From Nitrospira sp. (GTDB taxonomy: Bacteria; Nitrospirota; Nitrospiria; Nitrospirales; Nitrospiraceae), in NCBI GenBank assembly GCA_024998625.1, contig JACOEL010000011.1:62001-126000 (forward strand): DNA of 64,000 nt. Reading direction: 5' to 3'. Position numbers and translations under genes: made by a program. The notes under the pieces were generated by a model that made no database searches, had not been told where the DNA came from, and saw nothing but the letters and a program-made list of their open reading frames with translations. This document shows, one piece after another, positions 20,622-34,435 of this stretch. Numbering within the stretch: position 1 is the first letter of the stretch; the number at the start of each line of letters is the position of its first letter.

Positions 20622-21016
20622 ACCTCAACTGCCATCTGACGAACTCACGGCCCATCAGCGACTCGCCGCAAGTACGGCACGTTCCCTTCAGCACCATCCC
20701 CCTACAGGCTCCTTTTCTCTCCGACAGGGTGAACCCCGCACGAGCTCCTACGCTATCCGACTCGTTGTGCAGCCTCCAGCCAGGATCGACGGTGCTGCGA
20801 TGACTCCTCTGCTACAGATAAACGGCCCTACTCCACTAGGGCCCAATTACATTCCCAATTGTTAATCATCTCTAACCGCCTACTACGGCTTGGTGCTATG
20901 ATGTGCGGCGTGCAACCTATTCACTGGATGGTGAGTGCGACAATTCAGGCCAAATGAGCGTTCCGCCGCCGCAGCCCCCCAACCCTCTCGCGTCCACGCT
21001 TGGTAAGGAGGCACCT
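20622..21016. other. Intergenic region with a hairpin, upstream of the PAS kinase
   Basis: I see no supported gene. A perfect hairpin, GGCCCTA (20824-20830), loop CTCCAC, TAGGGCC (20837-20843), is the only clear structure. It lacks a T-tract, so it may be a processing or rho-independent-like end for the tRNA transcript, or part of the kinase leader. Confidence 0.4.
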
Positions 21017-22615
21017 GTGGCTGCGCAAGACCTGACAACGGCCCTCCCGCTACTGAGAGATTCCAGCACTGTTGAAGCCCTTGTCCGAACCCTGTCCGGT
21101 CAAGCATCCATCGGCATCTTTCTGTCGGACCCCGAAGGCCACACACTGTACCTTAACGAGCGGCTGCGCCGCATCGCCGGACTTCCCGTCACACCGACGC
21201 CCGGGGAATGCTGGCGCAATGCGCTGGCACCCGAAGACCATGACCCGATCTGCAGCGAATGGTCTGGCGCCACCAGCGCCGAGCGCAGTTTTTCACGTGA
21301 GTTTCGCTTCCGGCGGCCGGACGGCTCGCTGCGCTGGGTCATGGCGGAAGCCTTCCCATTGCGCAGCAGCGGAAGACCCTCCGGCGGTTACGTCGGTATC
21401 GTGCGCGACATTACCCCCAGACAACTGGCACTGGAAGCCCTGCACGCAAGCGAGGAGCGCTACCGGATGCTGGCACAACAATCGCCCCATGCGATCCTTG
21501 TCTATGCGGACAATGCCATCCTATTCATCAATGAAGCCGGTGCCCGGCTCTTCGGACTCGAGACCGCACACCCCATCGAGGGACACCCGTTGTGGGATTT
21601 CTTCCCGAAAGAATTCCTCCACGATCTCCCCTTGGCGGAAGCCGCGCCCATCCCGCCGGTCGAGCGACAATTGGTACGACCCGATGGAACGGTCATTGAT
21701 GTCGAATTGTCAGCGGCCCCGGTCATGTTCGATGGACATCCGGCCATCCAAATTCTAGGCACCGATATCACCGAACAAAAGGTCATCGCCGGGCAACTGC
21801 ACCGGGCAAAAAAAATGGCGACCGTGGCGACGCTGGCCGGCGGCATCGCCCATGAATTTAACAATTGCCTGACCGCCATCATGGGGTTCTCGGACTTGGC
21901 GCTGCCGTCACTCGCACCGGACAGTCGCGTCCATGGCCACATCCAGCAGGTAGTCCTCGCGTCGAAACGGGCTCGCGATCTCGTCACACAAATGCTCATG
22001 GTCGGTCGACAGACGGACGGCGCGAAACAGCCGCTCTCCCTGGATATCCTCCTCAAAGAAACGCTGCGAGTTCTGAAAATGAAATTGCCGGAGTCCATCA
22101 GCCTCCGCGAATGGATTCCCGGCGCAACCAACCCCGTGCTTGCCGACCCTACCCAGATCCATGAACTCTGCCTGAACCTGCTGGCACGGGCCCAACAGGC
22201 CATGACGATCGGCGGCGGGGTCTTGGAAGTCCGCCTCGACAATATGGGTCTTGACGTTTCGATGACCGGTCGCGATCTTCCGCTCCCACCAGGTCAGTAT
22301 GTGCGCCTCATGATCTCGGATACCGGTGAAGGCAGTCCCGCTGAAATCCAGGCGCCGATCATCCATCCGCTTTTCGCACCTCCCCCGACGGGAAGCAAAG
22401 CAGGAGCGGGGCTCGCGGAGTTGCAGCGAATCGTGAGCGAGCATGGCGGAACAATCCGCGCCACCAGCACGGCCGGCCAAGGTACCACCATCGAGGTCTA
22501 TCTGCCCGCAATGCTTCAGCCCCATCGGACAGTGGCTCAGGAACCGAGCCGCGAGCGCGCAGCACCCCTCACGGAAGCGAAGGAATTTCTTGCTGAGCGT
22601 GACAAAGAGCGGTAA
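21017..22615 (+). CDS. PAS-domain histidine kinase with a degenerate ATP-binding domain
   Basis: 532 residues from GTG 21017. That start has AAGGAGG (21005-21011) five bases upstream, whereas the further upstream GTG and ATG have no ribosome-binding site. There are two PAS domains, about residues 15-140 (ASIGIFLSDPEGHTLYLNER) and 150-270 (HAILVYADNAILFINEAG). The phosphoacceptor helix GGIAHEFNNCLTAIMGFSDL follows. In the catalytic domain the N-box Asn is Arg (LLARAQQAM, codon 22187-22189), the F-box is IHPLFAPPP, and the G2 box is GAGLAELQ. DTGEG of the G1 box is kept. No membrane helix is seen. It may be a weak kinase, a phosphatase or a sensor without ATPase activity. A receiver protein follows 108 bases later. 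Confidence 0.85.
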   Translation: MAAQDLTTALPLLRDSSTVEALVRTLSGQASIGIFLSDPEGHTLYLNERLRRIAGLPVTPTPGECWRNALAPEDHDPICSEWSGATSAERSFSREFRFRRPDGSLRWVMAEAFPLRSSGRPSGGYVGIVRDITPRQLALEALHASEERYRMLAQQSPHAILVYADNAILFINEAGARLFGLETAHPIEGHPLWDFFPKEFLHDLPLAEAAPIPPVERQLVRPDGTVIDVELSAAPVMFDGHPAIQILGTDITEQKVIAGQLHRAKKMATVATLAGGIAHEFNNCLTAIMGFSDLALPSLAPDSRVHGHIQQVVLASKRARDLVTQMLMVGRQTDGAKQPLSLDILLKETLRVLKMKLPESISLREWIPGATNPVLADPTQIHELCLNLLARAQQAMTIGGGVLEVRLDNMGLDVSMTGRDLPLPPGQYVRLMISDTGEGSPAEIQAPIIHPLFAPPPTGSKAGAGLAELQRIVSEHGGTIRATSTAGQGTTIEVYLPAMLQPHRTVAQEPSRERAAPLTEAKEFLAERDKER

Positions 22616-22723
22616 ATTCACCGTGGTGGTTAAACGGTGTCGAACGGCCGCCACCGGCCGTCTCCTGAGAGCCGCAACCCAATACGCAGACACTCAAACA
22701 CGAATACTCCTGTGAGGAATGTT

Positions 22724-23095
22724 ATGCCCTCGGTCCTGATCGTGGATGATGAAGAAGCGATTCGCCGACTGATTCGCAGCACGCTGGAACAGGCAGGTTA
22801 TCATGTCCGCGAAGCGGCCGACGGCAAGGCAGGGTTGTCCCACTATCGCCAATCCCCGGCTGATCTCGTGATCATGGATATCCTGATGCCTGACCAGGAC
22901 GGCCTCGAGAGTATTTTGACCCTCCGTCGTGAATTTCCCGAGGCCAGGATTATGGCGATCACCGGCGGAAGCGACATGATCGGCATCTTAAACTTCCTCG
23001 ATGTGGCTCGTATGCTGGGCGCGCGCCGAACGCTCCAGAAACCCTTCGAAATGCAGCAGCTCCTGGATGCGGTTCAAGCTGAGATCGCCGGCTGA
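22724..23095 (+). CDS. CheY-like response regulator (single receiver domain)
   Basis: 123 residues from ATG 22724, preceded by GAGGAA. It has the acidic pair in LIVDDEEAIRR, the phosphoacceptor Asp in LVIMDILMPDQDG, Thr in MAITGGS and Lys in RTLQKPFEM. No output domain. Position suggests it is the partner of the PAS kinase just upstream. Confidence 0.88.
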   Translation: MPSVLIVDDEEAIRRLIRSTLEQAGYHVREAADGKAGLSHYRQSPADLVIMDILMPDQDGLESILTLRREFPEARIMAITGGSDMIGILNFLDVARMLGARRTLQKPFEMQQLLDAVQAEIAG

Positions 23096-23664: not shown

Positions 23665-26040
23665 TCACGCCATGGCAACCGGATCGACATCGATATCGAA
23701 CCGGAGGCCCCCTCGTCGTGATTCCCGATCGAGCACGTCACGGGTCCGTACCACTATTTCCTTGCCTGCCTCAAGAGGCTGGGACTTGACCAGAATCTGC
23801 CAACAATAGCGACCTCGCGCCATGGCGTGCGGTGCCGGAGACGGCCCCAGGATAACGATGCTGCTCGTCTCCCCACCAAAACCAGTGGAACGCTGCGGCA
23901 GAGGCGAACCGTCGCCGGCATTTGTCCCCCGACTTCCTGCACTCACCACCTCCGCCCGGAGCAACGCCGCCCAGCGACCGGCGGCTTGGGCAACCACCGG
24001 TTCGAGCGTCCCGGACACATCCAACCTCACAAGCGACGTCAGAGGCGGATACTGAAGCATCTGTCGAAAAGCCTGCTCCTGCTGAAAAAACAAGGAATCG
24101 TCCCCAGCGGCCACCGCCATCATCGCATGATGATCCGTTAACCGGGTCTGGATCATCACCACGCCTCCGGCATGAGCGGGGAGAGCTAACTCCACGGCAT
24201 CCACCAGGCCATGGTACATCCGTTCCGCCGAGCGAAAGTCCGGCACGTGAAGACCGGCATCCGCATCCGGAACCCCGACAAACGCCGCCTGTGCCTGCAG
24301 GCCAAACCGGAACAGCATCTGGGTACCGATCACAATGTCTAATTCGCCGGCCGCAAGCAGCCGACTGAACGCCCGTGCATCAGCTGCGCGGCGAATCGTC
24401 TCACCATCCACACGGCCCACGCGCGCCAGAGGGAACTTCCGCCGTACGACCTCCTCGAGACGCTCCGTACCTGACCCAACCGGCTCCAACTTGAGCGATT
24501 GGCACCGAGTGCAATGATCCGGCACGGGTTTCGTTCGCCCGCAGTAATGGCAGCGCACATGATTACTACGCCGGAAAAACGTCAATGCAACGCTGCACGC
24601 ATCGCACTGCGGCATCGCGCCACAATCCCCGCAGTGCAAGACGCTGGCAAATCCTTTGCGGTTCAGATAGAGAATTGCCAGTGCGTTCTGCCGCAGGGCT
24701 TCCTGAATGCCCTCATAGAGCGGTGGCGATAACAAGGTTCCCGTCGGGGTCTCCCTGACGTACTCCCTCACATCGATGACCTGCACCCTCGGAGAACAGG
24801 TCGAGTCTCGGTAGACACAGGCCGTCATCTCCCCTTGCTGAACCGCTGACCAAGTCTCAAGCGACGGATGGCTTGAGGCCAGCACCAACAGGGCTCGATC
24901 GCAGCAGGCGCGTCGCCGTGCCACCTCCCGCGCATGGTACCGGGGCGATTGCTCCTCCTTTAGTGACGCGTCGTCCTCACCTTCAACCCATAGCAATCCC
25001 AATCGATCGATGGGCGCAAACACCGCCATGCGGGTGCCGACCAGGATCGTGGCCGACGAATCCTGTACCGATTGCCACACTGCTGCACGTTTCCTTGCCG
25101 AAAGACCACTGTGCAGGAGCAACGGCCGCTCTCCCGCTGCCGCCAGGGCTTCAGCCAATCGACCGGCATTCTCGACGTCACCCGTGACGACCAACACACG
25201 ACGCCCACGACGGATAGCGGCACGGGCTGCCTGCACAAGACACCAGAGTCTGGTGGCCCGAGCCCCCAGAACCAGAAACGAGCCATATGCGTCCTGCGAA
25301 AGCGCCCGACCAACGGTATCAGGCCACGCTGCCGCCTCCGGTGGTGGCGGCGGGTCATCAAGCGTCAATCTCACGAACACCGCATGCTCCGTCCCCGGAG
25401 TGGGGGTTTTTTTTGCTCGAGCCGCCCTCGGGACAACCGCATCATCGCAGCGCACAACGAGCCCTCTTCGAATCAGTATCTGCAACGCACGCATGACACG
25501 AGACTTGTCGCCCTGTGTCAAGGTATTCTCCGTAATGCCCTTGGAACGACGACGAAGGCGCGAGAGCACCTGAGTTTCAACTTCTCCCAACCCCTCAGAC
25601 AACGACGAATTGTCCGTGCCCTGTTCCGTCGGCCAATACCGAAATTGCCGCCGATCGGCCTGATCGACAAAAGGCGCCACAAGCTTAATGCATTGCCCCC
25701 ACGGTGCGGCGTACCGGTCGGCCACCCACCGGCTCAGATCGATTTGACTGGAGGTGAGCAAGTGGTCTGGAGATGTTGGGGCAAGGGAGCGGACGGCTTT
25801 TAGCCCCTGCGCGGGAGCGCCGAGCGGAAGGCGGTCATGCACCGCCGTGACGAGACCGTGAAGGTGCTGGGACCCGAACGGCACAATCACTGATTGCCCG
25901 ATTGCGACCTGCCCCTTGAGTGAAGACGGGATCACATAGGTGAAGGGCCGGTGAAGGCGGCGCGGCAACACCACATCGGCATAGGTAAGGGGAGGCGCAG
26001 GAACCACCGGTGGAGTTGCAGGCGAACGGTGATCGAACAT
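23665..26040 (-). CDS. priA: PriA-like primosomal protein N' lacking helicase motifs
   Basis: 791 residues from ATG 26040; the frame extends 23 codons upstream without support. PriA reloads DnaB at stalled forks. The N-terminal 3'-DNA-binding domain (VVLPRRLHRPFTYVI), the eight zinc-binding cysteines between residues 470 and 513 (CGDCGAMPQCDACS, CHYCG, CTRCQS), RYHARE, and the C-terminal domain ending in DVDPVAM are kept. The Walker A site is missing (LVLGARATRLW near residue 256), DEEH is VEGED (near 352), SAT is ASSH, the motif V region reads MLFRFGLQAQ, and the QxxGRxGR motif VI reads DAVELALPAHAG. ATP hydrolysis is therefore unlikely. The gene is open and full length, so it is not a pseudogene. 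Confidence 0.88.
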   Translation of the reverse strand: MFDHRSPATPPVVPAPPLTYADVVLPRRLHRPFTYVIPSSLKGQVAIGQSVIVPFGSQHLHGLVTAVHDRLPLGAPAQGLKAVRSLAPTSPDHLLTSSQIDLSRWVADRYAAPWGQCIKLVAPFVDQADRRQFRYWPTEQGTDNSSLSEGLGEVETQVLSRLRRRSKGITENTLTQGDKSRVMRALQILIRRGLVVRCDDAVVPRAARAKKTPTPGTEHAVFVRLTLDDPPPPPEAAAWPDTVGRALSQDAYGSFLVLGARATRLWCLVQAARAAIRRGRRVLVVTGDVENAGRLAEALAAAGERPLLLHSGLSARKRAAVWQSVQDSSATILVGTRMAVFAPIDRLGLLWVEGEDDASLKEEQSPRYHAREVARRRACCDRALLVLASSHPSLETWSAVQQGEMTACVYRDSTCSPRVQVIDVREYVRETPTGTLLSPPLYEGIQEALRQNALAILYLNRKGFASVLHCGDCGAMPQCDACSVALTFFRRSNHVRCHYCGRTKPVPDHCTRCQSLKLEPVGSGTERLEEVVRRKFPLARVGRVDGETIRRAADARAFSRLLAAGELDIVIGTQMLFRFGLQAQAAFVGVPDADAGLHVPDFRSAERMYHGLVDAVELALPAHAGGVVMIQTRLTDHHAMMAVAAGDDSLFFQQEQAFRQMLQYPPLTSLVRLDVSGTLEPVVAQAAGRWAALLRAEVVSAGSRGTNAGDGSPLPQRSTGFGGETSSIVILGPSPAPHAMARGRYCWQILVKSQPLEAGKEIVVRTRDVLDRESRRGGLRFDIDVDPVAMA

Positions 26041-26201
26041 GCGGCATTCTAACAACACCGGATGAGCGCAACAATCACGGTCCTTGCGAGAAGGGCGCTG
26101 ACGGGGCACCGTATTGGAAGCGGGGGGGCAATCTACCGAGAGGGAGGATCAACACATCTGGGCAACCGGCCTCCTCGGAAGAGACCGGTCGCCGTCACTC
26201 A

Positions 26202-27737
26202 TTATGAACCGGGCGGAGGCGAGGCCGTCTCACCGCCGACAGGCGAAACCGGCACTGCGACATCCGAAGGAACGGGAGCGATCGGTGCGTCTACCGACGC
26301 CGATCCTACCTGGGTTGCTGAGGCGGGTGGCACAACTGAGGTGGATGCCGGCGCCGCGTCCAGTTGGTTATACGTAAACTGCGCAGGGATCGGGTCTTTC
26401 TCCCTCAACGACGCCTTCGTAGTCTGGGGCCCCTCCTCCGGCGAATCGAGCACAACCTCGATGCGGCGGTTCTTTTTGCGGCCTTCCTCGGTCCCATTAC
26501 TGGCGACAGGACGGCTCGCTCCATACCCCACAGCAGACAACTTCGCTGAATCCATGCCGCCCTTCTCGATCAGATACCGCACGATCTCGGCGGCACGAGC
26601 CTTGGACAGCTCCCAATTGGTCGGGAATACTCCTTTGAGCGACGGCCCTATCTCCCTATTGTCGGAGTGACCTTCCACCCGCACCTGCTGAGAGACCGCA
26701 ACAGTCCTCAAATACTCCACCAGTTGTTCCAGAATGGGGACACCGGCAGGCTTCACTTTCACCTCACCGGATTCATATTCCAACTGCTCTGCAAGATCAT
26801 CAAGATTGATCCTGGCACTTCCATGAGCGCGCTCAACCCTGGGCTTGCTCATGGAGCGGGACGCGCTCGGCATCGCGGCAGCGCTGTCCGTCCTGGCATT
26901 CATCACCGGTTGAACCGTTGCAGCAGGAACATCCGAGTCCCCGTTCTCATATTGCATGACCTCAACAGGCGAGGCGTGTTTGGAGCGAACACGGTCGCCG
27001 ATCAGCGCACGGGCCGTGGCCTTGGACAACAGCGCAGTAGCCGTGTGGGGTTCGGTAGAGAGAATCTTCACTTCCCCGATTTTCCGCTCAGGAAGCCCGC
27101 CGCCGGTACGGAAGACTTCCAGATACTCGCCGGAACGGAGGCCTTCGTCTTGTCCCTTGTCGAGATAGACCAGGTTTCCCTGCGACACGAGCGACATGTG
27201 TTTATCGGCCTGCAGTTCAACAATCATGGCTTCGATCTCGACATGCGCCGATGCGGTCTCGCCCACTTCTTCCGCTGAAGGCGGTGTAAACCGCATGACC
27301 GGATCGCCGGGGGAGAGGGGAGCGTAGGACCGAACAACCTGGACGCCAACCAGCGCCGCGTCTATCTGAATGACTTTCACCACCCCCACTCTATTGATGA
27401 TATAGCCCATGTACTGCTTGGTCGTGGGGTGAAACACTTTGCGCGAGCGCCGGTATACGGTGTAGAGATCACCGAGCGCCGCATCACCGGGATTCTTCAA
27501 TTTGAGATAGAGGGTATCAGTCCCGGACCAGCCCAACATCATCCGGTTCCCGGAGAGTTGGTTGTCCCCGGTAATCACATTGATAACCCCGTCGATCGGC
27601 ATCTCCTGTCGAATCGAGCCGGCGGCATACGTGAGGGCGGCTTCCCCCAAGCGAACACTTTGAGCGTTCTGAGCATGAACAGGGATGGCCGTCACAGCTG
27701 CGAGACTGCAAGACAGGATGATCAGGCTGGCGCGCAT
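26202..27737 (-). CDS. OmpA-domain outer-membrane/peptidoglycan-binding protein
   Basis: 511 residues from ATG 27737, chosen because GAGGAC lies eight bases upstream and the signal peptide (MRASLIILSCSLAAVTAIPVHAQ) then starts properly. Residues 30-290 form an exported domain of unknown family, with phrases such as LGDLYTVYRRSRKVFHP and YLDKGQDEGLRSGEYLEVFR that resemble LysM-associated or FlgT-like beta domains. An OmpA-like domain follows (RVEGHSDNREIG, NWELSKARAAEIVRYLIEKG, GYGASRPVASNGTEEGRKKN), which binds peptidoglycan. A tail of about 70 residues rich in Pro, Ala and Val follows. Confidence 0.85.
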   Translation of the reverse strand: MRASLIILSCSLAAVTAIPVHAQNAQSVRLGEAALTYAAGSIRQEMPIDGVINVITGDNQLSGNRMMLGWSGTDTLYLKLKNPGDAALGDLYTVYRRSRKVFHPTTKQYMGYIINRVGVVKVIQIDAALVGVQVVRSYAPLSPGDPVMRFTPPSAEEVGETASAHVEIEAMIVELQADKHMSLVSQGNLVYLDKGQDEGLRSGEYLEVFRTGGGLPERKIGEVKILSTEPHTATALLSKATARALIGDRVRSKHASPVEVMQYENGDSDVPAATVQPVMNARTDSAAAMPSASRSMSKPRVERAHGSARINLDDLAEQLEYESGEVKVKPAGVPILEQLVEYLRTVAVSQQVRVEGHSDNREIGPSLKGVFPTNWELSKARAAEIVRYLIEKGGMDSAKLSAVGYGASRPVASNGTEEGRKKNRRIEVVLDSPEEGPQTTKASLREKDPIPAQFTYNQLDAAPASTSVVPPASATQVGSASVDAPIAPVPSDVAVPVSPVGGETASPPPGS

Positions 27738-28321
27738 GGGTAATGTCCTCATATTGATCACACCAAGGAGGGTTATCTGTAGCAACCTTAGCAAAGAGCA
27801 GGGGCTTGTCAAGAAACGGGACGGCACTGGACGGTTTGCTTCAGGTCTCCACGGGTGCTATCGTGAGCCTCGCACCGGAGTGACAATTCGGCAGGCATCG
27901 AGGGCACGGCGTCTGAATAGCTGAGGTATGGCGTGGGAACAGAGAAGCGTCGCATCAATACTCAAATGCCCCGCAGGTTGAAGGTTCGAACCGCCACGCC
28001 CATGGATTCCGAATGGGACATCAGCACCGGATCTCCACCGAGTGGTCTAAGAACCCCGGCCGACAAGATGAGGACGGGATCTTCGAATAACCAAGCTGCC
28101 CCCGATACCTCGCGGACACTTCCCAAGAAGAACGCAAGCACCCCCGGCTCATAGCAACAACCATCCGTGCCAGCTAACTGCTGGACAGTATTCAGTTTCT
28201 AGGACTTTCGGGACTAAAGACCTAGGTCCTTTGTGCGCTTGCTATTAAAAATAAGCAGGGGCTAAGATTCCGACCTCCTAATTAGCCCTATAAGCCCTCA
28301 AACCCATTGAGGTTCGAGCCA
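27738..28321. other. Intergenic region upstream of the nuo operon
   Basis: No supported gene in 584 bases between the OmpA-type gene and nuoA, which diverge. It should hold promoters for both. A DosR-like palindrome near 28201-28226 is described separately. Short open frames here lack ribosome-binding sites. Confidence 0.5.
28201..28226 (+). promoter_or_regulatory. DosR/NarL-type palindromic operator upstream of nuoA
   Basis: TTCGGGACTAAAGACCTAGG (28207-28226) matches 15 of 20 positions of the DosR consensus TTSGGGACTWWAGTCCCSAA. It also lies in an imperfect inverted repeat, AGGACTTT (28201-28208) with AAAGACCT (28216-28223), seven of eight pairing. The right edge is 96 bases before the nuoA start. 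The regulator is not identified in the window. Confidence 0.45.
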
Positions 28322-28705
28322 ATGGCCGGTTCAGAGCTCCTCTTAGAGTACCTAAGTCGATATTTTCCGATCCTGGTATTTGTGTTCGTCGCACTAGCGT
28401 TCGGCGCGGGCACATTGCTCATCAGCTACTTTGTCCAGCCGAAGTACCCGGAACCGGAAAAGCTCTCCACTTATGAATGCGGGTCTGAACCGTTTTCCGA
28501 TGCCAGGATGCCGTTTCCTGTTCGCTACTACATCTTTGCCATGCTGTTCGTCATTTTCGATGTGGAAGTCATCTTTCTGTATCCCTGGGCTATTGTTTTC
28601 AACAAGATCGGCCTGATCGGACTTATAGAGATGCTGATCTTCATCGGACTCTTCCTCGTCGCCTATGTCTACGCGTGGCGAAAAGGAGCTTTGGAATGGG
28701 ATTAA
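28322..28705 (+). CDS. nuoA: NADH-quinone oxidoreductase subunit A
   Basis: 127 residues from ATG 28322, with TTGAGG about ten bases upstream. Three membrane helices. The segment [20 protein letters not shown] is the conserved NuoA loop with its Cys, next to the quinone cavity, and [13 protein letters not shown] is the second hallmark. First gene of the nuo operon; its last ten bases overlap nuoB. Confidence 0.95.
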
Positions 28706-29223
28706 TTCAACTGGGAGGCCACGACAAAGACGGGACTCCCGACGTCATCACTCTTACAGTGGAGAAGGCCGTGAATTGGGCCCGGAAGGGGTCCTTGTGG
28801 CCGATGACCTTCGGGCTCGCTTGCTGTGCCATTGAAATGATTGCCGCCGTCTCGTCCCGTTACGACATGGATCGATATGGTGCGGGGGTCTTCCGGGCCT
28901 CCCCCCGCCAGTCAGACCTCATGATCGTGGCCGGAACCGTCTGCCGTCGTATGGCCCCGGTTATTCGTAAGATTTACGACCAGATGCCGGAACCGAAGTA
29001 CGTGATTGCCATGGGATCGTGCGCAACATCCGGAAACATTTACGACAGTTACAGCGTCGTGCAGGGAGTGGATCGATTTGTACCGGTCGATATTTATGTG
29101 CCGGGGTGCCCCCCGACTCCGGAGGCCTTATTCGATGGCATTCTGAAACTGCAAGAGCGCATCATGCAAAAGCGTGTGTTCCTCGCCCAACCGAAAGAAG
29201 TGAAAGACGCCCTAAAGGTCTGA
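28696..29223 (+). CDS. nuoB: NADH-quinone oxidoreductase subunit B (cluster N2)
   Basis: 175 residues from ATG 28696, chosen because AAGGAG precedes it by ten bases; an upstream GTG at 28675 would overlap nuoA more. It carries the cysteine ligands of 4Fe-4S cluster N2: the tandem pair in LACCAIEM, then GSCATSG and [11 protein letters not shown]. It hands electrons to quinone in the peripheral arm. Full length. Confidence 0.95.
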
Positions 29224-29240
29224 CGCACGGAAACTGACGA

Positions 29241-29738
29241 ATGAGTCAACTGGCCAAACATATCCAGGATACCTTTCCAGGTACCTGCACCAAGGTGGTG
29301 GAGTGGCGCGGGGATGTGTCCGTCACCGTCAAACGTGAGGCCTTGCACGACATCGGCAAGTTTTTACGCGACGACCCGGCCCTGAGGTTCGACTACATTG
29401 TTCATGTGAGCTCGGTCGATTGGCCGGATGACGAGGAACGTTTCGAAGTGGTCTATGAGGTGTATTCGATTCGAACCAGACAGCGCATTCGCCTGAAAAC
29501 TCGGGTTCCGGAGTCGGATTGTATTGTGGACTCCCTGACCGACATCTGGAAGGGTGCTGATTTCATGGAACGCGAAGTGTACGACATGATGGGCATCCGG
29601 TTCCGGAACCATCCAGACCTTCGCCGCATTCTGATGCCGGACGAGTATGAAGAAGGCTACCCCCTCCGCAAAGATTTTCCGCTCCGCGGCAAAGGATGGC
29701 GCGATACGTTTGAATTTTTGGACGAGCCGACCCGGTAG
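29241..29738 (+). CDS. nuoC: NADH-quinone oxidoreductase subunit C
   Basis: 165 residues. The family signature is visible in ERFEVVYEVYSIRTRQRIRL and in the end segment YEEGYPLRKDFPLRGKGW. It is a peripheral-arm scaffold subunit next to NuoD. NuoC and NuoD are separate genes here, unlike the fused NuoCD of Escherichia coli. Confidence 0.93.
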   Translation: MSQLAKHIQDTFPGTCTKVVEWRGDVSVTVKREALHDIGKFLRDDPALRFDYIVHVSSVDWPDDEERFEVVYEVYSIRTRQRIRLKTRVPESDCIVDSLTDIWKGADFMEREVYDMMGIRFRNHPDLRRILMPDEYEEGYPLRKDFPLRGKGWRDTFEFLDEPTR

Positions 29739-29766
29739 GGCGGTGATTTTGGACGACTAACCGATC

Positions 29767-31014
29767 ATGGCACAGTTCGAAGATCAACGAACTACAGTCT
29801 ATAAAGTCGACCCGGAACATCCGGAAGACGCGACGCTTCCAACCCTGCGAACGGAAGAGCTGCTCCTCAATATGGGGCCGCAGCACCCCAGCACGCACGG
29901 CGTGCTGAAAGTCATCCTCGAGCTGGAAGGCGAGCGGTTGGTCAAGTCCACCCCGGTGATGGGTTTTCTCCACCGCGGTGTCGAAAAGCTGGCTGAAGAA
30001 GGCACGTATCATCAGTTCATTCCGCACACCGACCGCCTCGATTATGTGTGTGCGATGTACAACAACTTCGCCTATTGCCGCGCCGTCGAAAAGCTGATGA
30101 ACATCACCGTGCCGGACCGCGCCGAGTACCTGCGCACCATCGTCGCGGAAATCCAGCGCATTATCGGCCACCAGTTCTGGCTCGGTACGCAGGCCCTCGA
30201 CATCGGGGCGATGACGGTCTTCTTCTATTGTTTCCGGGACCGTGAAATTCTGCTCGATTGGTTCGATGAGCTCTGCGGCGCTCGCCTCACGACGAGCTGG
30301 TACCGTATCGGCGGCGTCGAGCGCGATTTCACACCGTCCCTGTTCGCCAAGCTGAAACAATTCCTCGACTATTTCCCTCCAAAGATCGATGAGTACGTGA
30401 TCTTCCTGGAAAAGAACCGCATCTGGCTGGCGCGCACCAAAGGCGTGGCCGTAATTTCGGCCGAAGATGCACTGAGCTTTGGCTTGAGCGGACCGACGTT
30501 ACGAGGCTCAGGCGTTGATTACGATCTTCGCAAATACGAGCCTTACTCCGCCTATCCCAAGTGTGAATTCAGCGTCCCGGTCGGTAAGAACGGCGACACC
30601 TATGACCGGTACTGGATTCGCGTGCAAGAGCTCTACGAAAGCGTCAAGATCATCCGCCAGTGTCTTGAGCAAATACAGGACGGCCCGATCATGGCGGACG
30701 TGCCGAGCGTGACCTTGCCTCCGAAAGAACGCGTGTTCACGAACCTGGAGTCCATGATTCAGCAGTTCAAACTCTTCTCGCAAGGGTTTAACGCGCCTCC
30801 CGGAGAAATCTACTGCGGGACTGAAGCGCATAAAGGCGAATTGGGTTTCTACATCGTCAGTACGGGCGGCGGGAAGCCGTACCGGCTGAAAATACGCGCC
30901 CCGTCGTTTATCCATATGGGTGCGTTCGATCATATGTCGAAAGGCTACATGATCGCAGACGCCGTGACGATCTTCGGCACCTACGATATCGTCATGGGAG
31001 AATGTGATCGATGA
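29767..31014 (+). CDS. nuoD: NADH-quinone oxidoreductase subunit D (49-kDa type)
   Basis: 415 residues. NMGPQHPSTHGVL near residue 37 is the hallmark with the His of the quinone site, and GFLHRGVEKLAE follows. The C-terminus, IFGTYDIVMGECDR, has the family-typical ending. It forms the quinone-binding chamber with NuoB and, normally, NuoH. No hydrogenase-type nickel cysteines are present, so it is complex I rather than a membrane hydrogenase. Confidence 0.95.
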   Translation: MAQFEDQRTTVYKVDPEHPEDATLPTLRTEELLLNMGPQHPSTHGVLKVILELEGERLVKSTPVMGFLHRGVEKLAEEGTYHQFIPHTDRLDYVCAMYNNFAYCRAVEKLMNITVPDRAEYLRTIVAEIQRIIGHQFWLGTQALDIGAMTVFFYCFRDREILLDWFDELCGARLTTSWYRIGGVERDFTPSLFAKLKQFLDYFPPKIDEYVIFLEKNRIWLARTKGVAVISAEDALSFGLSGPTLRGSGVDYDLRKYEPYSAYPKCEFSVPVGKNGDTYDRYWIRVQELYESVKIIRQCLEQIQDGPIMADVPSVTLPPKERVFTNLESMIQQFKLFSQGFNAPPGEIYCGTEAHKGELGFYIVSTGGGKPYRLKIRAPSFIHMGAFDHMSKGYMIADAVTIFGTYDIVMGECDR

Positions 31015-31094
31015 AGACCGATACAGCACGAAGGAGAAAGTGAGCGGCGCTGATTCATTCTTTCGCCCCATCGCTTTTGACTTGAGGTAACTCC

Positions 31095-33803
31095 ATGGGT
31101 TTGAAACCAGCAACCAATCCAGACGTCGAAGCGGCCACGATCGAACTGTCGATCGACGGACGGACGGTATCGGCCAAAGACGGCGTCTCGCTGTACGATG
31201 TCATTGCCAGCACGGGGAAGATTATTCCTGCCATGTGCTACCACTACACGTTTGATCCCTTCGGATCCTGCGGTATGTGCCTGGTCATGCAGGAAGGCAA
31301 GAAGGCCCCGGTCCGTTCCTGCACTGCCAAGGCGGCAGCGGGCATGGTGATCCGCACAGACGGCGACGACCTCTTTGCGGCACGAAAGAAGGCCGTTGAA
31401 AAACATCTCTCGGTTCACCCGCTGGACTGCCCGGTCTGCGACGCAGACGGACATTGCGAGCTCCAGGACATGGCGTTCCAGCATGGCGTGACCAATCTCG
31501 CCAATGCGAAGCAAAAGTTCATTCCCGAAGACACGCGGAGCCTCGTACTCGACTTCAACATGAATCGCTGCATCGCTTGCGCCGAATGCATCAACGTCTG
31601 CAAAGACGTGCTGATGATCGACGCGTTGCAATTCATGAAGAAGGGCGGATTCAATCAGGTCGTGGCCAAAGGGGACCAACCCCTTGCCTGTGAATTCTGC
31701 GGAGACTGTCTGGCCGTCTGTCCGGTCGGCGCCATCACGAACAAATATTCCAAGTACCTCTACAAGCCTTGGCAGATGAAGAAAACCACCACCACCTGTA
31801 ACTATTGCGGCGATGGCTGCCAGATGCATCTCGAAACCAAAGACACCGAAGTCGTCCGCGTGACTTCTCCACTCTCCTGGAAAAATAAGTGGGGCGACCG
31901 GACTGAAACTGCCAAGGGACACGGTGGACTCTGCGTTCGCGGCCGATTCGGATTCCAGTACATCGACAGTGAACAGCGGCTTCGGCAGCCGCTCGTCCGC
32001 ACAGGCGAGACGCTGACGGAAACACCGTGGCTCGATACAATGCAGACTGTGATCGATCGGTTGTCCGACATTCATCGGAAGCACGGACCGGAGTCGATCG
32101 CCGGGCTGATTACCGCGCGCTGCACGAACGAAGAATTGTATCTCTTCCAGAAACTCATGCGCGCCGGCCTGAGAACCAACCAGCTCGATAGCAGTGCGCG
32201 CTACGGCCACCTGAACTATGTTCATGCCGTACGTCATGCGGTCGGTGTCGGTCGTCCACTCAATGATTGGGAAGATTTGACCAAAGCCAAGGCCATCCTG
32301 GTCATCGGCTCGAATATCACGGAGACCAACCCGCTGACGGCTGTCCGCATCAAGGAAGCCATTCGCGTGTATCGTTCGCAAGTCATCGTCGTGGACTCGG
32401 CCAATACGAACATTGCGCAACTAGCCTCGCATCCGCTCTTGGTCAAGCCAGGCAGCGAATCGTTCTTGATCGACGGGTTGGTGAAGTCGGTGATTGAGCA
32501 GGACCTCGTCGAGGAAGCGAGCACCACCCGGCATCCGCAGGCCTTTGCCGCATTGAAACAAGCCATGGTCCAGGTCTCCCTCGAACAGGTCTCCGCACAG
32601 ACCGGCATCGCAGTCGAGCAGATCCGAGAAATCGCCGCGATTTTTGCAGAAGCCCCGCGCGCCATTGCGTTGTGTGCCGAAGGCATTGTCCGACAGCCGA
32701 ACGGTTACCAGAATGTTCTCAAGCTGATTGATCTCGCCTGGGTGACAGGCAAGTTAGGTCAACCCGGGTGCGGCGTGACCACGGTCACAGAAGAAATCAA
32801 TGAACAGGGCGCAGTGGATATGGGCGTCGCACCGGAATTCCTCCCCGGCCAGGCACGATTCGATGACCCGAGCGCAAGGGAACGCTTCGGGAAAGCCTGG
32901 GACGTGACCCTTCCTGCCAGCGGGAGCGGCGCCAACTTTATGGAGATTCTCGCCCGTATTCGAAACGGCCAGATCAAGGCGTTGTATGTGATCGGAGAGA
33001 ATCCTCTGGCCACCTTGCCCGCCTCCATGGATGTGAAGGGGACGCTCGAAAAGCTCCAACTGCTCATCGTCCAGGACCCCTTCCTCACAGAAACAGGGCG
33101 AATGGCGCACGTCGTCCTCCCGGCTGCCACCTACGCGGAAAAGGACGGCACCTTCACCAATCTGGAGGGCAAGGTGCTCCGTGTGCGTCAGGCCGTTGAT
33201 CAGGTCGGAGAAAGCCTGCCGGACTGGCATATCATGACCGCACTGGCTAACGGTTTGGGATACGATTGGACCTATGAATCGCCGCAAGACGTGCAGAATG
33301 AAATCATGAAGCTGCTGCCGGGCTATTACAATCTCGGCCAACCTCGCCGCGTCTCGCCATCCGCCGACGCGTATTTGTCGAACGGCTACGCAGCTGAAGT
33401 TACGGGCCGGTATCGCAGTCAGATGGCACAATCGACGTCGAACGACAACACGCAACCCTTTACCTTACTGACCGGACAAGTGCTCTACCACTCCGGGAAA
33501 ATGTCCACGCGTGCATCGGGACTCATCAATATCGAACCGAACAGCGGGCGTATACGAATGAATCCGGCTGATGTGGAACGGCTCGGACTGAACGATCAAT
33601 CCACCATTCGCCTCACCTCGCGGCAGGGTTCCATACAAGCCGGCGTAAGAACCGATCCCGATATCCAGCCCGGATCGTGTTTCTTCCCCGAGCATTTTAA
33701 TGAGCCGGCTGTGAAAGACCTGATGGCCGTGGAGGTGGATGCAGTGACGGGAGTGCCGTACTTCAAATCTACGCGTGTCGTGATTGAAAAGGTTGGTGCG
33801 TAA
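31095..33803 (+). CDS. nuoG: NADH-quinone oxidoreductase subunit G with an extra 4Fe-4S site
   Basis: 902 residues, ATG preceded by GAGG. Cluster ligands in order: 2Fe-2S (Cys48, 59, 62, 76); HxxxCxxCxxxxxC (His108, Cys112, 115, 121); two four-Cys ferredoxin motifs, CIACAECINVC (159-169) and CEFCGDCLAVC (199-209); then CNYCGDGC with Cys280, as in cluster N7. Canonical NuoG has only one cluster where two are found here. A molybdopterin-oxidoreductase-like domain and a C-terminal molydopterin-binding-like domain follow. The Cys/Sec site of formate dehydrogenase (CHxP type) reads GHLNY, so it is not an active formate dehydrogenase. nuoE and nuoF, its usual partners, are absent nearby. Confidence 0.9.
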   Translation: MGLKPATNPDVEAATIELSIDGRTVSAKDGVSLYDVIASTGKIIPAMCYHYTFDPFGSCGMCLVMQEGKKAPVRSCTAKAAAGMVIRTDGDDLFAARKKAVEKHLSVHPLDCPVCDADGHCELQDMAFQHGVTNLANAKQKFIPEDTRSLVLDFNMNRCIACAECINVCKDVLMIDALQFMKKGGFNQVVAKGDQPLACEFCGDCLAVCPVGAITNKYSKYLYKPWQMKKTTTTCNYCGDGCQMHLETKDTEVVRVTSPLSWKNKWGDRTETAKGHGGLCVRGRFGFQYIDSEQRLRQPLVRTGETLTETPWLDTMQTVIDRLSDIHRKHGPESIAGLITARCTNEELYLFQKLMRAGLRTNQLDSSARYGHLNYVHAVRHAVGVGRPLNDWEDLTKAKAILVIGSNITETNPLTAVRIKEAIRVYRSQVIVVDSANTNIAQLASHPLLVKPGSESFLIDGLVKSVIEQDLVEEASTTRHPQAFAALKQAMVQVSLEQVSAQTGIAVEQIREIAAIFAEAPRAIALCAEGIVRQPNGYQNVLKLIDLAWVTGKLGQPGCGVTTVTEEINEQGAVDMGVAPEFLPGQARFDDPSARERFGKAWDVTLPASGSGANFMEILARIRNGQIKALYVIGENPLATLPASMDVKGTLEKLQLLIVQDPFLTETGRMAHVVLPAATYAEKDGTFTNLEGKVLRVRQAVDQVGESLPDWHIMTALANGLGYDWTYESPQDVQNEIMKLLPGYYNLGQPRRVSPSADAYLSNGYAAEVTGRYRSQMAQSTSNDNTQPFTLLTGQVLYHSGKMSTRASGLINIEPNSGRIRMNPADVERLGLNDQSTIRLTSRQGSIQAGVRTDPDIQPGSCFFPEHFNEPAVKDLMAVEVDAVTGVPYFKSTRVVIEKVGA

Positions 33804-33847
33804 GAGTAAGCTCGTCCGTCTTTTGGATGTCGTCAGAGGTGGTAGGA

Positions 33848-34435
33848 ATGAGTGTCGGGGCTTTGACCAAGAAAATTCTGCAGGCGGCGTTGTTCTATGA
33901 AATTTGGGATGCCATGAAGGTGACCTTCAAGCACATGTTCCATCGTCCCATCACCTTCCAATACCCCCGCGAACAACGCACCATCCCCGACGGTCACCGC
34001 GGTGCATTAGGATTGCTTCGTTATGAAGACGGCCGGGACCGCTGCGTGGGCTGCGACCTCTGTGAAGCGGCATGTCCGTCCCGTTGTATCAAAGTCATCA
34101 GTCAAGAAGACCCAGAGCGTCCCTTGCAACGTTTTGCCAGTGAGTTCTATATCGACATCACCAAATGCGTGTTTTGCGGCTACTGCGTCGAGGCATGCCC
34201 CGTCAACGCGCTTGCGATGACCAAGATGTACGAATACTCGACCCACGACAAGCGCACCCTCCTCTTCGACAAGAAAAGGCTCTACGAGGTCGGCGAACGT
34301 CACCTTGAGGACGCCAAAAAATATCTGTACGCCCATAACCAAGAAAAGAATTCTGACGAGAGCCGGGAATATCGTTACTACTTTCCGCAGTCGGTTCTCA
34401 AACCCACACAGTCACAACCCAAACATTTAAGCTGA
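33848..34435 (+). CDS. nuoI: NADH-quinone oxidoreductase subunit I (two 4Fe-4S clusters)
   Basis: 195 residues from ATG 33848, preceded by GAGGTGG at good spacing; an in-frame ATG at 33827 is less well placed. It has the two ferredoxin motifs CVGCDLCEAACP and CVFCGYCVEACP for clusters N6a and N6b. The N-terminal amphipathic helix attaches it to the membrane arm. Its immediate upstream neighbour is nuoG, not nuoH as in most operons. Confidence 0.95.
   Translation: MSVGALTKKILQAALFYEIWDAMKVTFKHMFHRPITFQYPREQRTIPDGHRGALGLLRYEDGRDRCVGCDLCEAACPSRCIKVISQEDPERPLQRFASEFYIDITKCVFCGYCVEACPVNALAMTKMYEYSTHDKRTLLFDKKRLYEVGERHLEDAKKYLYAHNQEKNSDESREYRYYFPQSVLKPTQSQPKHLS

Follow-up and report, generated by a model that had tools for sequence, protein, structure and literature searches.

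PriA pseudohelicases are already known as a kind from Deinococcus. That is, the PriA of Deinococcus radiodurans is a full-length protein with defective ATPase motifs and retained DNA-binding parts (Lopper et al. 2015, PMC4504706). It has no measurable ATPase and negligible unwinding activity, binds both ssDNA and forks nearly as well as E. coli PriA does, and interacts with DnaB (PMC4504706). The motifs were reported in the same study to be well conserved in 100 PriAs from 18 phyla, with Deinococcus-Thermus as the notable exception (PMC4504706). E. coli PriA, by contrast with these proteins, is an active 3'-5' helicase which works with PriB, DnaT and PriC pathways. Its PriA-pore, 3' DNA-binding domain (3'BD) and lobe-1 residues hold DNA, and upon fork binding its cysteine-rich region swings so as to encircle lagging-strand ssDNA (PMC10175261; PMC13377028). 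The ATPase-dead K230A version of the E. coli protein has been used for DnaB-loading assays with PriB, DnaT and DnaC (PMC10175261). Helicase activity is often taken as a conserved aspect of PriA's role in restarting replication, even though E. coli can make do with a PriA that is ATPase-dead. For Caulobacter, the idea of DciA acting with PriA has been raised (PMC9825169). An actinobacterial PriA orthologue has been termed 'smaller and very divergent' (PMC1193525); the actinobacterial proteins (NCBIfam PRK14873) carry the name primosome assembly protein.

Here 'the window' refers to the whole stretch of Nitrospira sp. DNA that was analysed, 64,000 nucleotides in length. Its priA coding sequence (Table 1) is open over 791 codons, or 827 from stop to stop, with the frame remaining open 5' of the ATG and offering an alternative GTG at 26109. 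The protein is a full-length PriA. Its domain order is 3'BD, zinc-binding cysteine-rich region and PriA C-terminal domain, each above its Pfam gathering score (39.3 bits in the case of Zn_ribbon_PriA, PF18319). The TIGR00595 model matches at 354.3 bits (curated cut-off 230.35), with that match beginning at profile position 15, i.e., past the Walker A. In phmmer searches against solved structures the protein is colinear with Klebsiella and E. coli PriA through every motif (E about 1e-69), indicating no frameshift. A frameshift or assembly artefact can be set aside as well given that close relatives from independent assemblies are 70-93% identical, including a PriA (that of G001) which is 87% identical to the window's. 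On the opposite strand adjoining priA are genes for a PAS histidine kinase and then a receiver-only response regulator (20903-23095, plus strand). An OmpA-family gene lies nearby (26202-27827, minus strand), and past both it and priA is the apparent start of a nuo-type NADH dehydrogenase cluster (28675-34435, plus strand), these latter two being based on ORF translations only.

Table 1. Features of the window's priA and its product (window positions; residues are those of the window PriA unless labelled E. coli)
Feature	Position	Strand	Basis or remark
priA CDS, 791 aa + stop	23665..26040	-	ATG at 26040
3' DNA-binding domain (3'BD, PF17764), residues 22-123, kept	25672..25977	-	Pfam 70.8 bits, cut-off 22.7, profile 1-96/96
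Eroded motif I / Walker A: LVLG-ARATRLWCL vs E. coli LLAGVTGSGKTEVY, residues 256-268	25237..25275	-	motif alignment
Kept GTR (E. coli G302-T303-R304), residues 335-337	25030..25038	-	G302 and R304 retained in both motorless clades
Eroded motif II: VEGED vs E. coli IDEEH, residues 352-356	24973..24987	-	motif alignment
Kept aromatic-rich-loop region: EEQSPRYHAREVARRR vs E. coli QQEGWRYHARDLAVYR, residues 362-377	24910..24957	-	E. coli Y335, R338, A341 retained in both motorless clades
Altered motif III: ASSHP vs E. coli GSATP, residues 388-392; S and P kept, T lost	24865..24879	-	motif alignment
Cysteine-rich region, zinc cysteines 8/8 (C470, C473, C479, C482, C497, C500, C510, C513)	24502..24633	-	Pfam and motif alignment
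Altered motif V: GTQMLFRFGLQA vs E. coli GTQMLAKGHHFP, residues 572-583; GT kept, KGH lost	24292..24327	-	motif alignment
Eroded motif VI: DAVELALP vs E. coli QVAGRAGR, residues 614-621; both arginines lost	24178..24201	-	motif alignment
PriA C-terminal domain (PriA_C, PF18074), residues 727-787, kept	23680..23862	-	Pfam 41.6 bits, cut-off 26.9

An earlier note on this DNA, drawn to positions 24166-25275 (PriA residues 256-625), had described all helicase motifs as eroded, with the N-terminal DNA-binding part, eight zinc cysteines and C-terminal parts being intact. Both aspects of that description hold, the latter on the Pfam scores and cysteine count of Table 1. In terms of the former, every string which that note quoted is present in the translation: LVLGARATRLW as motif I (residues 256-266), VEGED as motif II, ASSH in motif III (residues 388-391), MLFRFGLQAQ in the motif V region, and DAVELALPAHAG as the motif VI stretch (residues 614-625). 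Affected overall are motifs I, Ia, II, III, V and VI, with residues expected of an active SF2 helicase replaced at the positions of E. coli K230, T231, D320, E321, T358, K544-G545-H546, R584 and R587; within motif II the third acidic residue (E322 in E. coli) alone survives. We infer that the window PriA would no longer bind or hydrolyse ATP, nor unwind DNA, and annotation of such PriAs as helicases is to be avoided.

Nor does an intact copy reside elsewhere. The earlier note had called for a search for a second, full-length PriA, and a profile search of this 4.42 Mb, 100% complete genome reveals only the one; other matches to the PriA profile are below 51 bits, mainly involve the profile's ends, and come from frames whose lengths are those of Mfd (1206), RecG (858) and UvrB (671). 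The same is seen more broadly, with PriA present as one copy each in all 29 of the Nitrospira genomes searched.

The resemblance to Deinococcus is to a sole PriA with lost motifs, a loss which, as considered below, is fixed by clade and found in a constrained protein. It extends to the Walker A lysine, which is an arginine in D. radiodurans PriA and likewise at the aligned Nitrospira position. The differences are that this is another phylum, that poor motifs I and II are what the earlier study stresses for Deinococcus-Thermus whereas here the damage extends over motifs I, Ia, II, III, V and VI, and that the Nitrospira case is known by sequence. With E. coli and Klebsiella PriA (8fak, 6dgd, 4nl4) the window PriA shares its arrangement of domains, its zinc region and, as predicted, its fold (Z about 26), but it is missing the motor residues, and neither DnaT nor PriC is found alongside it. 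The window PriA scores 411 bits with PRK05580 models versus 149 bits with PRK14873 models. Deinococcus, rather than the actinobacterial or mycobacterial PriA, is the closer documented precedent.

The window PriA retains the elements that hold a fork, though without a motor, and what we propose is an ATP-independent platform for fork recognition and DnaB reloading, acting with DciA. That this sole PriA would be functional as such a pseudohelicase, i.e., an ATPase-dead, fork-binding platform for reloading DnaB, is given a probability of roughly three in four. The 3'BD together with the C-terminal domain would recognize an abandoned fork, with the two dead RecA-like lobes serving as a rigid surface for the parental duplex and the lagging-strand ssDNA, and with the cysteine-rich region closing on the lagging strand in the manner of the E. 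coli protein. DnaB then would be recruited by PriA along with DciA, rather than with DnaT or PriC, and any needed unwinding would be left to separate helicases, those encoded being RecG, RecQ and UvrD-family proteins. We infer that Nitrospira PriA may both bind forks and contact DnaB and DciA. The platform idea is consistent with E. coli K230A PriA, a form that still supports the loading of DnaB (PMC10175261), and with D. radiodurans PriA, to which DnaB binds although ATPase activity is missing (PMC4504706).

Among candidate partners, DciA is encoded by the window's genome, and across the class 190 of 197 genomes have it. Genes for DnaT and for PriC, as used in the E. coli-type PriA-PriB-DnaT pathway, are found in none of 29 genomes (0/29 for each, with E. 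coli controls positive). Encoded by the window's genome as well are RecQ and UvrD-family proteins, along with a RecG-sized match. None of the partner or helicase genes tested tracks motor loss. DciA occurs with intact and motorless PriA alike, and because intact-PriA relatives also possess it, DciA does not explain, and is rejected as a cause of, the loss of the motor. Compensation by a particular helicase is rejected too, there being no simple presence/absence link: UvrD-family helicases are found in 29/29 genomes, while RecQ is found in Nitrospira and in many intact relatives but falls short of the cut-off in several genomes with a motorless PriA and in some with an intact one.

Rather than loading DnaB, PriA may have departed from replication restart for another task at forks or on DNA, e.g., fork protection or polymerase blocking, which we view as unlikely. 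The absence of a found DnaT-type partner would be in keeping with that reading, as would changes in the pocket for the SSB tail, where, with residue numbering here taken to be shifted by one to match the E. coli sequence, W83 is kept in the window PriA while Y87 is R and K371 is E. This partial change in the pocket means that SSB recruitment may differ from that of E. coli. Nevertheless, this is the only PriA, and its fork-recognition domains and cysteine-rich docking region have all been kept, which speaks against such a departure.

How far the loss extends was considered using PriA sequences from about 150 Nitrospirota genomes, with motifs tabulated on E. coli columns. GKT is missing from all 73 PriAs of the order Nitrospirales plus family f40, and from all 37 of a second Nitrospirota clade, while it is present in 67 of the 68 PriAs of the remaining families (the exception, L195, being a broken frame), a distribution which is not due to chance. 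Within Nitrospirales (families f1-f4) motifs I and VI are missing and motifs II, III and V altered, though with partial retention in some. Families f39, f40 and f41 of the same class also are motorless, while f5, f6, f7, f38 and f42-f45 are intact. The second motorless set consists of f11, f17, f19, f21-f27 and f35-f37, whereas f8-f10, f12-f16, f18, f20, f28 and f30-f34 are intact. In every tabulated row the zinc cysteines are 8/8, and the letters which replace the motifs are unrelated between genera. The possibility that relatives would have kept their motifs, making this copy a recent mutant, accordingly failed; the motifs are missing across the order, and the nucleotide-binding and hydrolysis residues had been lost by the time the Nitrospirales diversified.

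Certain cases in this survey are worth describing individually. Four PriAs of f4, in Nitrospirales (L064-L066 and L068), retain the DEEH of motif II in spite of having lost motifs I, V and VI, implying that the motifs decay at different rates. A PriA of f29 (L247, from the single MAG G245) has intact GSGKT and DEEQ but a motif VI of QLAEKVGT rather than QLAGRAGR, which possibly is an early stage of motor loss or instead a MAG error. Genome G365 of f40 has two PriA-like matches (contigs C30 and C53), one of them broken by a TGA, and this may represent a duplicate or a mixed bin. Six genomes of the order Nitrospirales (G072, G079, G102, G033, G044 and G050) lack any PriA match over 60 bits, either as a binning gap or as a true absence; G072 is 99% complete though only 2.0 Mb in size.

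In a tree made with rpoB from 62 genomes and from E. coli, intact families enclose the second motorless clade (13 rows, SH-aLRT 100), Nitrospirales with f40 and also f39 sit beside the intact f38, and f41 is found among the intact f5, f6, f7 and f42-f45. A PriA tree based on 552 columns, i.e., with motif blocks taken out, similarly separates the two large motorless clades. Both trees require four state changes. The AU test does not, however, reject a loss shared by f39 (G354) and the Nitrospirales (p-AU 0.435), so that the number of losses is at least three rather than four. The parallel loss that had been suggested earlier thus is borne out within this phylum, with the rpoB tree, PriA tree and AU tests together indicating at least three independent losses of the motor in Nitrospirota.

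A single ancestral loss, or instead horizontal transfer between lineages, would give the motorless PriAs of the two clades a shared origin, and superficially similar replaced motifs in both (HAP in motif I, NRKG in motif IV) might be viewed in that light. This is improbable. The motif-free PriA tree places each motorless clade with its own relatives, forcing the two large groups into one clade costs 56 log-likelihood units and is rejected (p-AU 0.0025), and the rpoB tree agrees.

Given independent losses, it is of interest which residues have been shed. On a family-weighted basis, 117 columns are conserved in 90% or more of the intact PriAs. Both motorless clades have lost 23 of these, chiefly within motifs I, V and VI and including (in E. 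coli numbering) T226-E232 (motif I), L257 and T258 (Ia), and further E321, T358, G545, H546, Q580, G583, R584, G586 and R587. Kept in both are 41 columns, including the eight cysteines, G302, R304, E322, the aromatic-rich-loop residues Y335 and R338, then S356 and P359, along with R427, G429, G538, T539, P566-D567-R569-E572, P631-P632, G674-P675 and P729. Loss in both clades affects 16 of 29 motif columns versus 7 of 88 others (Fisher p = 3e-7, using the five motif blocks as usually drawn; another version with hand-picked ATP-site columns is post hoc and no weight is placed on it). Per-column retention is correlated between the clades, with rho of 0.75 over the 117 columns and 0.68 outside of the ATP site. 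With the same columns lost and the same kept, independent lineages shed the nucleotide site while retaining DNA-facing, zinc and framework residues.

It is conceivable, if very improbable, that nucleotide is instead bound or hydrolysed through other residues, as a non-canonical ATPase. The retention of E322 in nearly all rows of both clades, and of the whole of DEEH in f4, is in keeping with such an activity. Nevertheless the glycines, lysine and threonine of the P-loop are gone, as are both arginines of motif VI, with unrelated letters in different genera. Lysine to arginine in Walker A, the change seen most often within the Nitrospirales clade, abolishes the ATPase of E. coli PriA (as cited in PMC4504706).

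Between the window priA and those of 12 Nitrospira relatives, pairwise dN/dS is 0.15-0.22 (Nei-Gojobori). When the gene is divided up, lobe 1 has values of 0.11-0.19, the later part of lobe 2 (2b) 0.05-0.16, the cysteine-rich region mostly 0-0.08, and the N-terminal DNA-binding part 0.17-0.34. Constraint on the dead motor thus is strong, and no looser than that on the DNA-binding domain. An AlphaFold2 model built using 23 Nitrospira sequences is of moderate confidence (mean pLDDT 68), with the first RecA-like lobe mostly over 80 and with the 3'BD and chain ends poorly modelled. It displays the PriA tertiary fold, RecA-like lobes included, and its closest PDB matches are PriAs (6dcr, 8fak, 6dgd and 4nl4; Z 25.6-26.3), well over Mfd and RecG. 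Purifying selection has kept the fold together with the domain for fork binding, the zinc region and the C-terminal domain.

That priA is dispensable and decaying, with the motifs as the earliest visible damage, is scarcely credible, as the earlier note already suspected from the open frame, and is largely refuted by dN/dS values well below 1, for although motif residues vary by genus as unconstrained sites would, and a few MAGs of the order have no PriA match, the frame is open in every examined Nitrospira genome, the lobes are as constrained as or more so than the 3'BD, the cysteines are 8/8 in all rows, the motorless state spans the order plus a second clade, and genes missing from single MAGs are probably binning gaps.

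What is new here, relative to Deinococcus, is the phylum, the near-complete erosion, the fixation across an order, and the repetition of the loss, at least three times independently, in a single phylum; no report of PriA in Nitrospirota was found in the open-licence literature, though one may exist elsewhere. More tentatively, and as a possibility that is doubtful rather than probable, motor loss might represent a recurrent adaptive switch among DciA-using bacteria, one by which PriA becomes an ATP-independent fork clamp and loading platform whose dead lobes serve as a surface for DNA and partners. The order of the steps of loss may be visible in the intermediate families f4, f39, f41 and f29. 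The motor, in any case, is missing from all Nitrospira nitrite oxidisers examined, with the rest of PriA still under selection, and motor-plus and motor-minus relatives thereby supply a natural comparison that sorts ATP-hydrolysis residues from those of fork binding and loading.
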